Below, one piece after another: positions 3,274 through 7,504 of a stretch of DNA of 7,504 nucleotides. The translations under genes and the position numbers were made by a program. Every line of letters starts with the position of its first letter. Position 1 is the first letter of the stretch. The DNA comes from Opitutaceae bacterium (lineage in GTDB: Bacteria > Verrucomicrobiota > Verrucomicrobiae > Opitutales > Opitutaceae): contig JAISAX010000230.1 in NCBI GenBank assembly GCA_031266495.1, positions 1-7,504 on the forward strand, in the 5' to 3' direction. The notes under the pieces are model-generated. The model worked only from the letters and a program-made list of their open reading frames with translations. It was not told the DNA's origin and did not search any database.

Positions 3274-3513
3274 ATGCCCACATCTGAAAAGTCCCGCATC
3301 ATCGTCCTCAATAGATTGAGCACGATTTCAAACGTAGATGGCCTCATGGGAGAAACCCCTGTCAAGCTCCGGGTTCCATCTTCATTTGCGCATGATAATG
3401 CACACGGCAACCTCCATTCATACAAAAACCTGAAGGAATTTGAATCTGCTGCTCGCGAAAGCGGTAAACGTTTTCGCAGCGCCATTGATACTGGCTGTCA
3501 AACCACCCTATAA
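3274..3513 (+). CDS. Small hypothetical protein, first gene of a two-gene cassette
   Basis: A 79-aa protein I do not recognise. It has no signal peptide or membrane segment and is probably cytoplasmic. A basic N-terminal part (MPTSEKSRIIVLNRL) is followed by a Gly/Pro/His-containing middle and a charged, probably helical stretch at about 50-70 (YKNLKEFESAARESGKRFR). The ATG at 3274 is chosen because the upstream extension to 3223 runs through non-coding-looking Arg/Thr-rich sequence. No Shine-Dalgarno site is seen. Its TAA stop (3511-3513) overlaps the ATG of the next gene as TAATG, which argues that both are translated and coupled. Base composition is clearly lower in GC than the flanking genes. 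A small gene preceding and overlapping a larger one recalls toxin-antitoxin or immunity pairs, but no motif supports that. Confidence 0.55.
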   Translation: MPTSEKSRIIVLNRLSTISNVDGLMGETPVKLRVPSSFAHDNAHGNLHSYKNLKEFESAARESGKRFRSAIDTGCQTTL

Positions 3514-4070
3514 TGTCAGAGATCTCCTTCGAGACTCTCTTTGCCGGAACTAAAGAGAGTGCTCATTTTGTGTTTCTTGACTGGACGGATCATTTCCTTG
3601 AGGGATTTGGTATTGCGGATTCAGTCAAGCTCCCCAGTGAATATGCCTATGATTTTATCGGGCAACTACAAACGGCCCGGAGAAATTTTCCTGCGAAAGG
3701 AGGCTACGAAAAAGCCAGTCCATTCAAAAAAGCGGCTTATCTGTATGTATCCCTGCATGCCTACCGTCCATTTCTGGGAAGCCTTCCAGTGGATGTATTT
3801 AACGGCTTGGCAGCATACACTCATGCCCCATCAAGTATCATCGGATTCTCTATGGTCAAGGAATGCCTCTTGAATGCCGAATTGCATCGTTCCGACAATA
3901 AATGTGTCCGGCTCCAGGTCCCCATCACCACGTCATTTCATTTTTTTCGGGATCTTGTTGATGCCTCATCCGGCATTGCGCTGGAAACGCATTACAAAAC
4001 ATTTTCCATGCTCTTTGAAGCGCTCGCCTACGGAGCAAACCCGCAAGCCTCCTATGACAAGGTGATCTGA
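3513..4070 (+). CDS. Hypothetical protein, second gene of the low-GC cassette
   Basis: A 185-aa protein of unknown function. It has no signal peptide and no clear transmembrane helix, so it is probably cytoplasmic and mainly helical. It begins with an acidic, aromatic N-terminus and contains a basic Lys-rich stretch (KGGYEKASPFKKAAYLYVSL, 62-81) and a conserved-looking C-terminal part (ITTSFHFFRDLVDAS at 138-152; THYKTFSMLFEALAYGANP at 159-177). I cannot assign a family. Hand counts of two 60-base samples (3541-3600 and 3841-3900) give about 43-45% GC, against 78% for a sample in the neighbouring regulator (4681-4740), which suggests recent acquisition. The start is fixed by the TAATG overlap with the small upstream gene, so the two probably form one operon. 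The gene is convergent with the lacI-type gene. Confidence 0.75.
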   Translation: MSEISFETLFAGTKESAHFVFLDWTDHFLEGFGIADSVKLPSEYAYDFIGQLQTARRNFPAKGGYEKASPFKKAAYLYVSLHAYRPFLGSLPVDVFNGLAAYTHAPSSIIGFSMVKECLLNAELHRSDNKCVRLQVPITTSFHFFRDLVDASSGIALETHYKTFSMLFEALAYGANPQASYDKVI

Positions 4071-4315: not shown

Positions 4316-4328
4316 CCCCCCCCCCCCC
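4316..4328. repeat. Homopolymer run of 13 C (G13 in the lacI transcript)
   Basis: Thirteen C residues begin three bases beyond the stop codon of the minus-strand regulator, so the regulator mRNA carries a 13-G run immediately after its TGA. It could form a G-quadruplex or slow polymerase. Tract length is likely to be unstable or mis-sequenced. Confidence 0.8.
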
Positions 4329-4331
4329 ACG

Positions 4332-5384
4332 TCAGCATGTCGGTGAACCGGCCTGCGCACGCACGCTCTGCCCGTCCACCCAGGTGGCGTCGATCATCAC
4401 CCGCTGCGGGTGCTCCGGCACGCCGCGCTCGTTGCGATGCAGCATGCTCACCAGCAAATCCACCGCCGCCGCTCCGATCACGGAGCCGTTTTCGTTCATC
4501 CCCGAAAACCAGGAATTGTCCGACGTGACCGGCGGCACGAGACCGATTTCACCGGGAATATTCCACCCGTCCGCCGTCAACCATTCACGCGCCTCGGCAT
4601 GCTCCGTGGCGATCACCACGTCGGGACGATAGCGCGCCAGCCACGTCCGGAACGGCGCCGGTCCTGGCGTCTCCATGACCAGCGGAGGCGCCACGCCGCG
4701 CCGCTTTCCGCTCCGCGTCGCGAACTCCCGGAACGCCGCCGACCACATCCGGTTCACCCGCTCCTCGTGAAACACCGACGCCGCCAGTCCCGGATTCCGG
4801 TAACCCAGCGCCGCCAGCTTTTCCAGCAACGCGATCATCGTCCGGTAAGCGTGGCTCGTCACCGTGTGCAGCGCCGGCGATTCCAGCGTGAACCCGAACG
4901 TCACCGCCGAAAATCGCGACAGGTCCACGTCCAGCCGCGTGTGCGACTCCGGCTGCGGCACCAGCAGCAGGCCCTGCACGCCCCGCGCCAGCAACACCCG
5001 CAGCGCCGCCGCAATTCCCCGCCCCTGCTCGCGTATCCAGAATTCCTCGACCGTGTAACCCAGGGACCCGGCCCGGCGGCGCGCGCCATCGAGATATTGC
5101 GGGAACGCATGGTTGCTCCGCCACCCCTCGCGCGTCGGCCAGTTCGTCACCCACGCCAGCGTGCCCGTGTAGTGCGGCTCCCGCCTCCCCCGGCGCCAGG
5201 CCGCCAGACCCGCAAGGTAAGGGTCGGGCTGGTAGCCCATGTCCTCCGCCAGCTTCCGGACCCGCTGCACGGTGTCCTTCGCGATGCCGGGATGCCCGCG
5301 CAACGCCCGCGACACCGTTCCGTGATGAAGCCCCAGCCGCTGTGCCAGTTGCTGGAGAGTGACTCTTTCGGGCGCAGATTTCAT
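4332..5384 (-). CDS. LacI-family transcriptional regulator
   Basis: A 350-aa regulator. Residues about 8-28 form the helix-turn-helix (VTLQQLAQRLGLHHGTVSRAL, recognition helix around TVSRAL 23-28), followed by the third helix and a hinge at about 51-60 (Y51-x-P53-D54-P55, ending in L60). The rest is the periplasmic-binding-protein-like sensor domain, ending with a 'SGMNEN...MLHRNERGVP' block of the sort I recall in Opitutaceae LacI proteins. The family normally represses catabolic genes and releases DNA on binding a sugar or sugar derivative. The start at 5384 is preferred because LacI proteins begin just before this helix; the 47-codon extension to 5525 runs through the operator and the G-run and looks non-coding. 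The gene is divergent from the hydrolase, and a palindrome lies 28 bp upstream of its start, so autoregulation is likely. The hinge keeps the leucine lever but lacks the common A-R-S before it. Confidence 0.93.
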   Translation of the reverse strand: MKSAPERVTLQQLAQRLGLHHGTVSRALRGHPGIAKDTVQRVRKLAEDMGYQPDPYLAGLAAWRRGRREPHYTGTLAWVTNWPTREGWRSNHAFPQYLDGARRRAGSLGYTVEEFWIREQGRGIAAALRVLLARGVQGLLLVPQPESHTRLDVDLSRFSAVTFGFTLESPALHTVTSHAYRTMIALLEKLAALGYRNPGLAASVFHEERVNRMWSAAFREFATRSGKRRGVAPPLVMETPGPAPFRTWLARYRPDVVIATEHAEAREWLTADGWNIPGEIGLVPPVTSDNSWFSGMNENGSVIGAAAVDLLVSMLHRNERGVPEHPQRVMIDATWVDGQSVRAQAGSPTC

Positions 5385-5411
5385 GCGTCCATAAACCCGA
5401 TTGCCGGAATC

Positions 5412-5425
5412 TGCACAAGTGTGCA
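5412..5425. promoter_or_regulatory. Predicted LacI-type operator in the lacI/hydrolase divergent region
   Basis: TGCACA-AG-TGTGCA is a perfect inverted repeat with a 2-bp centre, 28 bp upstream of the regulator start and 102 bp upstream of the hydrolase start. The identical 14-mer recurs at 6528-6541. GATTGC lies exactly 7 bp before both copies, and a C-T-N-GACC word follows at the same distance after both, so the shared block is 5399-5442. This fits a binding site for the adjacent LacI protein. TTGACC (5437-5442) looks like a -35, but no matching -10 is seen. Confidence 0.7.
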
Positions 5426-5476
5426 CCGCAAGCCGCTTGACCCCGATGATTGCCCCGATGCACGCTCGCGGCTCAC

Positions 5477-5498
5477 TTCCCTGTGTGTTCCCTGTGTG
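5477..5498. repeat. Perfect tandem duplication TTCCCTGTGTG x2
   Basis: An 11-bp unit occurs twice without a gap (5477-5487 and 5488-5498) in the divergent promoter region, between the operator and the C13 run. It could be a second protein-binding site or a slippage product. It is not present before the second PEP-CTERM gene. Confidence 0.7.
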
Positions 5499-5502
5499 AA
5501 TT

Positions 5503-5515
5503 CCCCCCCCCCCCC
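5503..5515. repeat. Homopolymer run of 13 C before the hydrolase start
   Basis: Thirteen C residues end 12 bases before the hydrolase ATG and occupy the place where a ribosome-binding site would normally be. A length change would alter the leader and spacing but not the reading frame from ATG 5528. Confidence 0.8.
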
Positions 5516-5527
5516 TTTCCTCCATTC

Positions 5528-6472
5528 ATGTTCCCTATTCTTTCCCGGTCTCTCTTCCTCCTGTTCCTTGCTATCGCCATCCTGCCGCGCATCCGGGGGG
5601 CTGAACCCGCCGCCGGACCCGGACCGACTCTGGCAAACGTGCAGTACGGCAGCCACGAGCGGCAGACGCTGGATTTCTACCAAGCGAAGCCGGACCAAAC
5701 CGGCAAGACCGGCTCCGGCAGGACGCCGCTCCTGTTCTTCATCCACGGCGGCGGCTGGATGACCGGCGACAAGGCCAACCCCGACTTCTTGGCCAGGTGC
5801 CTCGACGCCGGGATTTCAGTCGTCTCGATCAACTACCGCCTGATTCCCGATGCCCGCGCCGCAGGGATTACCCCGCCGGTAAAAGCCTGCCTGGACGACG
5901 CGGCGCGCGCGCTGCAATTCGTGCGCGGCAAGGCGGACGAATGGCGTATCGACAAGGAACGGATCGGCGGCTGCGGAGGCTCGGCGGGCGGGTTCACGGC
6001 GCTGTGGCTCGCCTTTCATCCCGACATGGCGGAGCCGGCGAACCCCGATCCCGTTGCGCGCGAATCCACGTGCCTGCGCTGCGTATTGGCATTCGTCCCA
6101 CAGACCTCGCTGGACCCGCTCCAGATGCGTGCCTGGATCCCGAACAACGACTACGGGCACCACGCCTTCGGTCTCGGCACCATGTCGGAATTTCTCGAAA
6201 AACGCGACGCCCTGCTGCCATGGATCCGGCAACTCTCCCCGTATTCACTGGCGAGCGCCGGCGACCCGCCCGTATTGCTCTTTTATGACAACCCGCCGGC
6301 CATCGGACAACCCTACAAGGACCCGCCCCACTCGGCCAACTTCGGAGCCGGACTGGCGGAAAAACTCGAAACCGCGGGGATCGAACACGAAATCAACTAC
6401 AACAACGACTACCCGCGCATGAAATGGCCCGACCTGTTCGGCTTCCTTGCGGAGAAGCTCCAGCGCCGTTGA
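5528..6472 (+). CDS. Secreted alpha/beta-hydrolase, esterase/lipase-like
   Basis: A 314-aa protein with a signal peptide (hydrophobic 8-20, cleavage probably near A25). The fold shows an HGGGW oxyanion-hole motif at 73-77 and a nucleophile elbow G-G-S-A-G at 150-154 with S152 as the likely catalytic serine. D254, after the strand PPVLLFY, is the probable acid residue. Members of this esterase group often remove acetyl or feruloyl groups from polysaccharides, so a carbohydrate esterase role in the periplasm or outside is plausible but not shown. The expected catalytic histidine after the last strand (about 285-300, IEHEINYNNDYPRMKW) is not obvious; H268 is the nearest alternative. The ATG at 5528 is chosen over the upstream one at 5450 because it starts exactly at the signal peptide and lies after the C13 run. 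It is divergent from the LacI gene, and the second PEP-CTERM gene follows on the same strand 156 bp downstream with its own operator copy. Confidence 0.88.
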   Translation: MFPILSRSLFLLFLAIAILPRIRGAEPAAGPGPTLANVQYGSHERQTLDFYQAKPDQTGKTGSGRTPLLFFIHGGGWMTGDKANPDFLARCLDAGISVVSINYRLIPDARAAGITPPVKACLDDAARALQFVRGKADEWRIDKERIGGCGGSAGGFTALWLAFHPDMAEPANPDPVARESTCLRCVLAFVPQTSLDPLQMRAWIPNNDYGHHAFGLGTMSEFLEKRDALLPWIRQLSPYSLASAGDPPVLLFYDNPPAIGQPYKDPPHSANFGAGLAEKLETAGIEHEINYNNDYPRMKWPDLFGFLAEKLQRR

Positions 6473-6525
6473 ATCCGGAAAACCGCTCCTGCCCAAGCCA
6501 TTTTCCAAACCATTGATTGCGAACG

Positions 6526-6543
6526 ATTGCACAAGTGTGCAAT
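6526..6543. promoter_or_regulatory. Predicted LacI-type operator upstream of the second PEP-CTERM gene
   Basis: ATTGCACAAGTGTGCAAT is a perfect 8+2+8 palindrome, the best dyad in the window. Its inner 14 bases are identical to the operator at 5412-5425. It lies 85 bp upstream of the ATG at 6629, and the shared flanks (GATTGC at 6515-6520, CTCGACC ending at 6558) keep the same spacing as the other copy. It separates the PEP-CTERM gene from the hydrolase, suggesting a second promoter controlled by the same regulator. Confidence 0.7.
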
Positions 6544-6628
6544 ACGAACCCCTCGACCTGACGCACCTGATACCCTGTCGTGAACGTCCCTTGCACGCAC
6601 CCGCCACAACACGCCACCCGCAACCGAT

Positions 6629-7384
6629 ATGAAACTCAAACGCATCCGGAACCTCGCCCTGGCAATCACAGCCACCCTCCCGGCACTCCCCCTCACCCTC
6701 CCGGCCACCGCCACCGCCACGCTCGTGACATGGGACTTCCAGGGCAGCGACGCCGCTGCCATGCTGAAGTCACACACCGCAGTCAGCGGCATCACCGCTC
6801 TCGATATCGGCCTCAATAACATCAACCAGAGCAACCGTATCAACAACATCTATACCACCACGGCGCTTGCGGTCACGCCAACCTCCGCCCAGAACGCCTA
6901 CGATTTTTCCACTGCCTTCGGCAACGCCTCGTATCTCTCCTTCAGCATAACGATCGCCGACGGCTACACGCTCACGCTCGACACCTTCTCGCTTCAGGTT
7001 GCCTCCGGCGCGGGAAGCTCGCCGGACACCAGTGTCCGCGCCTTTTACGTGCTTTCCTCGCTCACCGGTTTCGGGAACGACGAAAACAGGATCCTTGTAA
7101 AAGGCGCCAACACCGATGGTTTGCCAGTCCGCCCGGTCGATAAAAGCCTCAAGGACGTTTCGGTCACCCTTTCCGATCCCGCGTTCAAGGGTATCGATTC
7201 CGGCAATACCATTGAATTCCGCATTTACATCCAGTGCGACGGAAACACGCGCGCGCTCGATTTCGACAACGTCACCCTCACCGGCTCCCTGACCGCCATC
7301 CCCGAACCCGCATCGGCGACCCTTCTCCCCGGCCTGCTCGCCTGCGCCTGTATCGGCTTTCTCATTATCCGCCGCCGTTGGTGA
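6629..7384 (+). CDS. PEP-CTERM sorting domain protein
   Basis: A 251-aa secreted protein and close paralogue of the protein at 166-921. The N-terminus has K2, K4, R5 and R7 followed by a hydrophobic stretch, with cleavage probable near residue 30 (ATATA). The Ser/Thr/Asp-rich body is predicted beta-sheet. The C-terminus carries a full PEP-CTERM signal: I-P-E-P at 224-227, a hydrophobic segment at about 229-247 and a basic tail RRRW at 248-251. Shared strings with the paralogue include VRAFY (136-140), SVTLSD and EFRIYIQC (196-203). It should be exported and processed by an exosortase encoded elsewhere. An operator identical to the one beside lacI lies upstream, which suggests carbohydrate-responsive expression together with the hydrolase. 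No Shine-Dalgarno site precedes the ATG. Its molecular role at the surface, perhaps binding or biofilm matrix, is unknown. Confidence 0.92.
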   Translation: MKLKRIRNLALAITATLPALPLTLPATATATLVTWDFQGSDAAAMLKSHTAVSGITALDIGLNNINQSNRINNIYTTTALAVTPTSAQNAYDFSTAFGNASYLSFSITIADGYTLTLDTFSLQVASGAGSSPDTSVRAFYVLSSLTGFGNDENRILVKGANTDGLPVRPVDKSLKDVSVTLSDPAFKGIDSGNTIEFRIYIQCDGNTRALDFDNVTLTGSLTAIPEPASATLLPGLLACACIGFLIIRRRW

Positions 7385-7410: not shown

Positions 7411-7504
7411 GGGGGGGGGGGGGGGGGGGCCCGGCCGGGGGCGGGGGCGGCCGGGGGGGCGCGGGCCCCCCCGCGGCCCGGGCGGCGGCCCCCCCGCCCC
7501 CGCC
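7411..7504. other. G/C-only terminal stretch, probable sequence artefact
   Basis: A run of 19 G (7411-7429) is followed by 75 bases made only of G and C, with no A or T to the end of the window. Nothing coding is supported. A natural 94-base stretch without A or T would be very unusual even in a GC-rich genome. A failed read-through of the G run or an unpolished contig end is more likely. Confidence 0.7.

Follow-up and report, generated by a model that had tools for sequence, protein, structure and literature searches.

The stretch of DNA analysed here (the window; 7504 bases, 60% G+C) comes from a relative of termite-gut bacteria. It carries a gene for a LacI-family regulator, a divergent esterase-like gene and, behind the latter, a gene for a PEP-CTERM-like surface protein. 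The palindrome TGCACAAGTGTGCA occurs twice among these genes, each time accompanied by short upstream and downstream elements:

4332..5384, minus strand: LacI-family regulator of 350 aa, with an HTH, the hinge Y-Q-P-D-P-Y-L-A-G-L and a Peripla_BP_3 sensor domain (Pfam)
5399..5404, plus strand: upstream hexamer GATTGC, copy 1
5412..5425, unstranded: predicted operator 1, TGCACAAGTGTGCA, in the gap between two divergent genes (27 nt to the lacI ATG, 102 nt to the hydrolase ATG)
5436..5442, plus strand: downstream element CTTGACC, beginning 10 nt past operator 1
5528..6472, plus strand: BD-FAE / Abhydrolase_3 esterase-like protein (alpha/beta-hydrolase; BD-FAE 80.5 bits, cut-off 26.8), putative target of operator 1
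6515..6520, plus strand: upstream hexamer GATTGC, copy 2
6528..6541, unstranded: predicted operator 2, TGCACAAGTGTGCA, 87 nt before the PEP-CTERM-like ATG
6552..6558, plus strand: downstream element CTCGACC, beginning 10 nt past operator 2
6629..7384, plus strand: PEP-CTERM-like surface protein (C-terminal IPEPAS, hydrophobic stretch, RRR), putative target of operator 2

An earlier, sequence-only reading of this DNA had pointed to identical palindromes at 5412-5425 and 6528-6541, next to lacI and ahead of a secreted hydrolase and a PEP-CTERM gene. Both sets of coordinates were confirmed, with all 14 of the 14 core letters alike, as were the positions of the genes, the hydrolase having a signal-peptide-like start. 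With up to three mismatches allowed, four strand matches are found in the window, all of them at these two places, while shuffled sequences gave a mean of 0.35 and none of 200 shuffles reached four. The core can be parsed as TGCACA-AG-TGTGCA, which is an even palindrome, in register, with a G at position 6 of the half-site. The central CG pair of the canonical LacI operator is missing; the AG centre reported for both window sites is indeed there, and it is invariant in all six homologous sites described below. GATTGC, CT-N-GACC and the 44-bp blocks that they delimit (5399-5442 and 6515-6558) had also been placed correctly in the window, and the 7-bp spacer, described as unconserved, is identical at 0 of 7 positions between the two blocks. 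Outside the core, sites 1 and 2 agree at 17 of 42 flank positions. Agreement this high also arose in 854 of 20,000 random placements, so a comparison of the flanks of just these two sites is weak evidence. A search for sigma-70-like promoters between 5300 and 6700 yielded none (shuffled mean 0.3); with no such promoter by which to place the sites relative to a transcription start, repression is an assumption.

The N-terminal HTH of the regulator passes the Pfam LacI model (PF00356) by a narrow margin (27.5 bits, cut-off 27), and its periplasmic-binding-protein-like sensor domain matches Peripla_BP_3 (PF13377) with 35.3 bits (cut-off 26.5). Its closest named relative in the genome collection is found in Geminisphaera colitermitum TAV2 (75%). 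This genome and that of Opitutaceae TAV5 (7,317,842 bases, about 7.3 Mb), two genomes of the genus, were scanned as relatives; the orthologs of the window lacI in the two are 75-79% identical. In a plasmid search with the regulator, the sole match was a 50-residue HTH stretch in Hymenobacter. The recognition helix reads HHGTVSRAL, with His15, Gly16 and Thr17-Val-Ser-Arg20 in the numbering of Camas et al. Alignment to 3bil and a residue count show that residues 51-55 are L-A-G-L-A, so that Leu54 is kept and the conserved Ala51 is replaced by Leu; the remark that the hinge has no A-R-S ahead of its leucine was correct. Leu51 makes the regulator a less typical member of the LacI/GalR family, albeit without affecting its membership, Ala51 being common and not defining. 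According to PMC2978694, Arg20 goes together with the G at half-site position 6, a rule that the window operator obeys, and in solved complexes it is Leu54 that enters the CG step at the centre, with Ala51 tied to CG as well. The loss of Ala51 with retention of Leu54 fits a non-CG centre.

Both putative target genes have counterparts in TAV5. The ortholog of the esterase-like gene is 82% identical and occupies the corresponding position, while that of the PEP-CTERM-like protein is 56% identical and adjoins an operator. The latter protein had no Pfam or NCBIfam match. Its model (pLDDT 70) matched beta-sandwich structures only weakly, including several carbohydrate-binding modules, with TM-scores of at most 0.35 by query length among the matches listed. 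Like PEP-CTERM/exosortase surface proteins, the putative targets of operator 2 and of its homologous operators have C termini with PEP, then a hydrophobic stretch, then basic residues; unlike in such systems, no exosortase match was obtained among the six window ORFs scanned. The window holds a second PEP-CTERM-like gene (166-921), the product of which is 42% identical to that of 6629-7384; the 165 bases ahead of it contain no operator match at up to three mismatches.

For the protein encoded at 987-2990 (667 aa), sequence searches of Pfam, NCBIfam and PDB gave no match. Its model (mean pLDDT 89) most resembles polysaccharide lyases, namely GAGase VII (E 5e-12), PL33 (E 9e-12) and heparinase III (E 5e-9), all distant with TM-scores of about 0.35-0.5, and it was also likened to alginate lyase kinds. 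There are 433 homologs at E 0.001, and all of the 120 listed are named only 'hypothetical protein'. One relative of 1025 aa among these 120 bears PF05426 (alginate lyase). These proteins may make up a lyase family that is as yet unassigned. Between this gene and lacI sits an ORF of 185 aa (3513-4070) with no Pfam or NCBIfam match and no counterpart in the six relative loci compared.

Runs of C or G of 10 to 19 bases occur at 49-64, 1007-1016, 4316-4328, 5503-5515 and 7411-7429; four of the five are intergenic, and that at 5503-5515 ends 12 bases ahead of the esterase ATG. In 21 kb, six C/G runs measuring 15 to 22 bases were counted at the TAV2 locus (L001), and none over 9 at the three TAV5 loci (L068-L070). 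Such runs could be length-variable switches or assembly artefacts, and a literature search on them gave nothing for these strains among the papers listed. The last 75 bases of the window (7430-7504) are almost pure G/C and read like assembly noise rather than genome sequence.

TAV5 contains two orthologs of the window lacI, 5 kb apart (lacI1 and lacI2; 79% and 77%), in addition to paralogs at 63% and 60%. An exact TGCACAAGYGTGCA is present at three places in this genome, with 0.09 expected by composition, and all three lie within the lacI1/lacI2 clusters: between lacI1 and the esterase gene, between the esterase gene and the PEP-CTERM gene (L068 6575, the counterpart of operator 2 at the corresponding place), and between lacI2 and another PEP-CTERM gene. 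In TAV2 the single exact place is found between lacI and a divergent PEP-CTERM gene. All exact places in the scanned relatives (3 of 3 in TAV5, 1 of 1 in TAV2) are thus in clusters of lacI orthologs, and the motif is not scattered. The proposal of a local LacI regulon, for which a comparison with orthologous lacI genes had been suggested, is supported by these results. With up to two mismatches on both strands, TAV5 gave 39 matches against 41 for the reversed-pattern control, so no wider regulon shows; the figures for TAV2 are 30 and 30. The distance from the operator to the start of lacI is 27 nt in the window, 29 nt at both lacI1 and lacI2, and 28 nt in TAV2. The paralogs carry altered palindromes, each predicted from one genome: CGCACACTTGTGCG (CGCACA-CT-TGTGCG) lies 7 nt upstream of the start of the 63% paralog and CGCACACATGTGCG (CGCACA-CA-TGTGCG) 26 nt upstream of that of the 60% paralog. 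The distance of just 7 nt to the start codon in the former counts against the operator reading.

For the arms alone, GCACANNTGTGC, the composition of TAV5 predicts 8.3 occurrences; five places were found, four in clusters of this regulator clade and one inside an unrelated ORF. As they are not rare, the case rests on the positions of the sites. GCACANNTGTGC is absent from TAV2, the site there being TGCACAAGCGTGCA. Among 216 loci, 12 match GCACANNTGTGC; these are the TAV5 loci of this clade, the TAV5 locus with the in-ORF copy (L072) and a lexA locus (L004), and none was found in the lacI loci of other genomes (L002, L003, L007-L034).

Comparison of the six homologous sites showed that 13 of the 14 core columns are invariant, including the AG centre. 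The varying column, at offset 8, is T in the window and the lacI1 cluster and C at lacI2 and in TAV2. Past the core, offsets 19, 22, 25, 28 and 29 are invariant, with ACGAACCGTTCGACC as the majority reading. Three of these offsets (25, 28 and 29; 6/6) fall in the downstream element, where offsets 26, 27 and 30 are alike in five of the six sites, and the element, (C/T)T(C/T)GACC, is intact in five of the six. At the position of GATTGC, the four sites of the relatives read GACAAT, AACAAT, GATAAT and GATAAT, and only its GA is common (G in 5/6, A in 6/6 sites). Of the conserved flanks proposed from the window, the downstream element has consequently held up, whereas GATTGC is not kept outside the window.

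The blocks share a history. The two copies in the TAV5 lacI1 cluster have 31 of 42 flank positions in common, and between window site 2 and its counterpart in TAV5 the figure is 27 of 42, which none of 20,000 random placements reached; these agreements identify the operator blocks as homologous copies. The sequence-only reading had invoked selection rather than recent duplication. This is a false choice: all the sites derive from the copying, long ago, of a single block, and the core was held constant thereafter.

The neighbouring genes appear to have been copied as well. At all four regulators of the clade in TAV5, a divergent PEP-CTERM-like gene is followed on the same strand by a pilin-like gene (DUF1559/N_methyl); at lacI1 the esterase gene intervenes between the regulator and the PEP-CTERM gene. 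The gene order of the window is that of TAV5 lacI1, and TAV2 and TAV5 lacI2 have the simpler order with a single operator. The pilin-like gene scores above the Pfam cut-off at lacI1, at the 63% paralog and in TAV2, and was assigned by tblastn similarity at lacI2 and the 60% paralog. The PEP-CTERM assignment at the 63% paralog comes from its place and its C-terminal IPEP motif; the window PEP-CTERM protein had no tblastn match at that locus. The next gene is, in three of the four clusters (lacI1 and the 63% and 60% paralogs), a 56-58% homolog of the window gene 987-2990. At lacI2 and in TAV2, another protein without Pfam match is positioned ahead of the pilin-like gene. In the window, 987-2990 lies on the opposite side of lacI, behind the second PEP-CTERM-like gene (166-921).

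The sites, their conservation, their locality in two relatives and the gene order are direct observations. From the sequences, TGCACAAGTGTGCA is very probably the operator of the adjacent LacI-family protein, in a self-regulated local regulon that has been copied as cassettes. A dimer of the regulator would bind each site in the standard LacI register, with G6 facing Arg20 of the recognition helix. Bound at operator 1 it would silence lacI itself together with the esterase-like gene that diverges from it, and bound at operator 2 the PEP-CTERM gene and whatever comes after. A ligand in the sensor domain, presumably a sugar from a plant polymer, would release it. Binding, repression and release are inferred, as are co-transcription of the genes and looping between the two window operators, which lie 1,116 bp apart. 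The unit of lacI, operator, PEP-CTERM gene and pilin-like gene, mostly with a lyase-like gene, would have been copied several times in the genus, each copy with its own operator, and in the lineages of the window and of TAV5 lacI1 the operator block would have been duplicated to both sides of the esterase gene.

Other explanations of the palindromes can be weighed against the same observations. The regulator might act as an activator, or as a dual regulator, at the PEP-CTERM promoter rather than as a repressor. Operator 2, at 87 nt ahead of the start codon, could be located upstream of the promoter, and a conserved element follows the operator. Most LacI-family members characterised so far are repressors, however, and the location of operator 1, at 27 nt from the lacI start, is typical of self-repression, which makes activation unlikely. 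A still less probable explanation is that the palindrome is recognised by another DNA-binding protein, such as LexA, or forms part of a promoter, for example of the sigma-54 type, with lacI as merely one target. The conservation of (C/T)T(C/T)GACC speaks for this and implies that more than one factor may act. The sole TGCACANNTGTGCA place in a distant Chthoniobacteraceae MAG (G003; L004 1501-1514), with the sequence TGCACAACTGTGCA, also sits at the start of a gene that encodes LexA DNA-binding and S24 peptidase domains. TGCACAACTGTGCA is perhaps the lexA self-operator of that MAG lineage, and a similar palindrome can thus serve another regulator elsewhere. Against it stand the confinement of the exact sites in TAV5 and TAV2 to clusters of lacI orthologs and the presence of matching but altered palindromes at the starts of two paralogous lacI genes. 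The sigma-54 consensus is TGGCAC-N5-TTGC. A sigma-54 element was rejected, since this consensus sets its GC steps 11 bp apart, against 10 bp in the palindrome, and the palindrome has no GG.

That the two blocks are a mere duplication, or the ends of a mobile element, without any function is highly improbable. The 31 of 42 flank positions common to the two TAV5 copies do indicate that the block was duplicated at some point. Functionless copies are nevertheless at odds with the drift of the window flanks (17/42) next to a core that is identical at 14 of 14 positions, with the single-copy state in TAV2 and at TAV5 lacI2, where the core is alike at 13 of 14, and with the position relative to lacI, which is kept.

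Autoregulation in a local LacI regulon is ordinary biology, and it is conservation that supports it here. Ravcheev et al. (2014; PMC4052901) found more than three-fourths of the local regulators in their survey to be autoregulated; of its 1251 even palindromes, 1173 were CG-centred, 49 had another centre, and 29 were degenerate. The window sites resemble the operators of such regulons (PMC4052901, PMC2978694) in being even palindromes in the standard register, with G6 combined with Arg20, one of them close to the start of the regulator gene and the other at a neighbouring gene. They differ in having AG and not CG at the centre, with Leu and not Ala as residue 51. EbgR-like members that lack both the hinge alanine and the leucine have no central CG; their operators have a single central C or G, and the proteins an insertion ahead of helix 3 (Francke et al. 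2008, PMC2329647). In these, too, loss of hinge residues accompanies loss of the central CG, but the window regulator has retained Leu54 and lost only the alanine, and the spacing of its operator is even. The word Verrucomicrobia does not occur in the text of the 2014 survey (PMC4052901). Among the papers listed by searches of the open-licence literature on LacI with Verrucomicrobia, with PEP-CTERM or with operator geometry, none showed such operators, and none showed control of PEP-CTERM genes by a neighbouring LacI-family protein.

A wider survey was made of hinges and centres in the genus, in which LacI-family HTH genes have undergone an extreme expansion (at least 150 in TAV5, G008, and at least 126 in TAV2, G001). 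With at most 150 candidates scored in each genome, 276 matches were obtained, and 140 upstream regions were taken from among the best-scoring ones listed, 80 of at least 150 in TAV5 and 60 of at least 126 in TAV2. Residues were numbered by a motif rule in 116 of the 140 and by position in the other 24, so that a few assignments of residue 51 may be wrong. With the window regulator included (141), residue 51 is Leu in 50, Val in 37, Ala in 29, Ile in 15, Met in 6 and another residue in 4. An aliphatic residue 51 is present in 107 of the 140 sampled regulators, 78 of which also have Leu54. Several other TAV5/TAV2 ortholog pairs have clean palindromes near their starts.

Under a strict threshold, a conserved dyad was called in 8 of 39 reciprocal-best pairs, compared with 1, 2 and 0 of 39 in the mirror and two wrong-complement controls. 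In the hinge class of Asp/Asn48 with an aliphatic residue 51, a class that was defined after seeing the data, none of the five pairs is CG-centred (three of the five have Leu54), the centres being CA, AC, an odd GCC, TC/CC and TG. Addition of the three distinct operators of the clade described above brings this to 0 of 8. The one pair with Ala51 is CG-centred, and the two pairs with an aliphatic residue 51 and another hinge have a CC and a CG centre; by residue 51 alone, one of seven is CG. A loose threshold gave dyads in 21 of 39 pairs and in 10, 5 and 5 of 39 in the controls, a false rate so high that the conclusions rest on the strict call. A control with mispaired regions understates chance, as shared descent is missing from it. 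At the loose threshold, CG was found in 2 of 13 aliphatic-51 pairs (L133/L192, and L144/L167 without the usual hinge), in 1 of 11 when Asp/Asn48 is required, and in 2 of 4 even dyads with Ala51, where three further dyads are odd; at either threshold the Ala51 pairs are too few for the contrast with them to be tested. Other genomes of the family contributed 28 loci, 27 of them numbered, and 21 pairs with at least 60% HTH identity. Of these pairs, two had a conserved dyad, which was weak in either case and lacked a CG centre (unrelated pairs: 5 of 145), and inspection of four by eye revealed no clear operator. Pairs outside the genus gave no usable footprint, and the idea of a link between hinge and centre could therefore not be extended beyond it.

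The rarity of CG centres against the 1173 of 1251 in the published survey is a real departure, drawn from the sequences of one genus and a class defined after the data, and a non-CG centre with a Leu51 hinge is apparently common in this genus. It may be, although this is put forward tentatively and with some doubt, that in the termite-gut Opitutaceae the aliphatic-51 hinge of most regulators has given up the CpG kink, leaving the operator centres free (AG, CT, CA, AC, TC, CC, TG or odd).

A central CpG, together with the alanine and the leucine of the hinge, is all but constant in DNA binding by the LacI family, and it is the Leu51 hinge with a non-CG centre that is of specialist value here. 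The genus offers a conserved natural set in which alanine and CpG are missing and leucine is kept, with a predicted operator, its protein and several paralogs for comparison, which makes it directly testable what the hinge requires at the operator centre. It also provides a handle on how these Verrucomicrobia separate over a hundred similar regulators. For annotation, PEP-CTERM, pilin-like and lyase-like genes of unknown role would be tied to regulator-controlled cassettes. If the centres have indeed been freed, a single genome could operate a great many local LacI circuits without overlap, several of which would be tied to copied PEP-CTERM / pilin-like / lyase-like cassettes.
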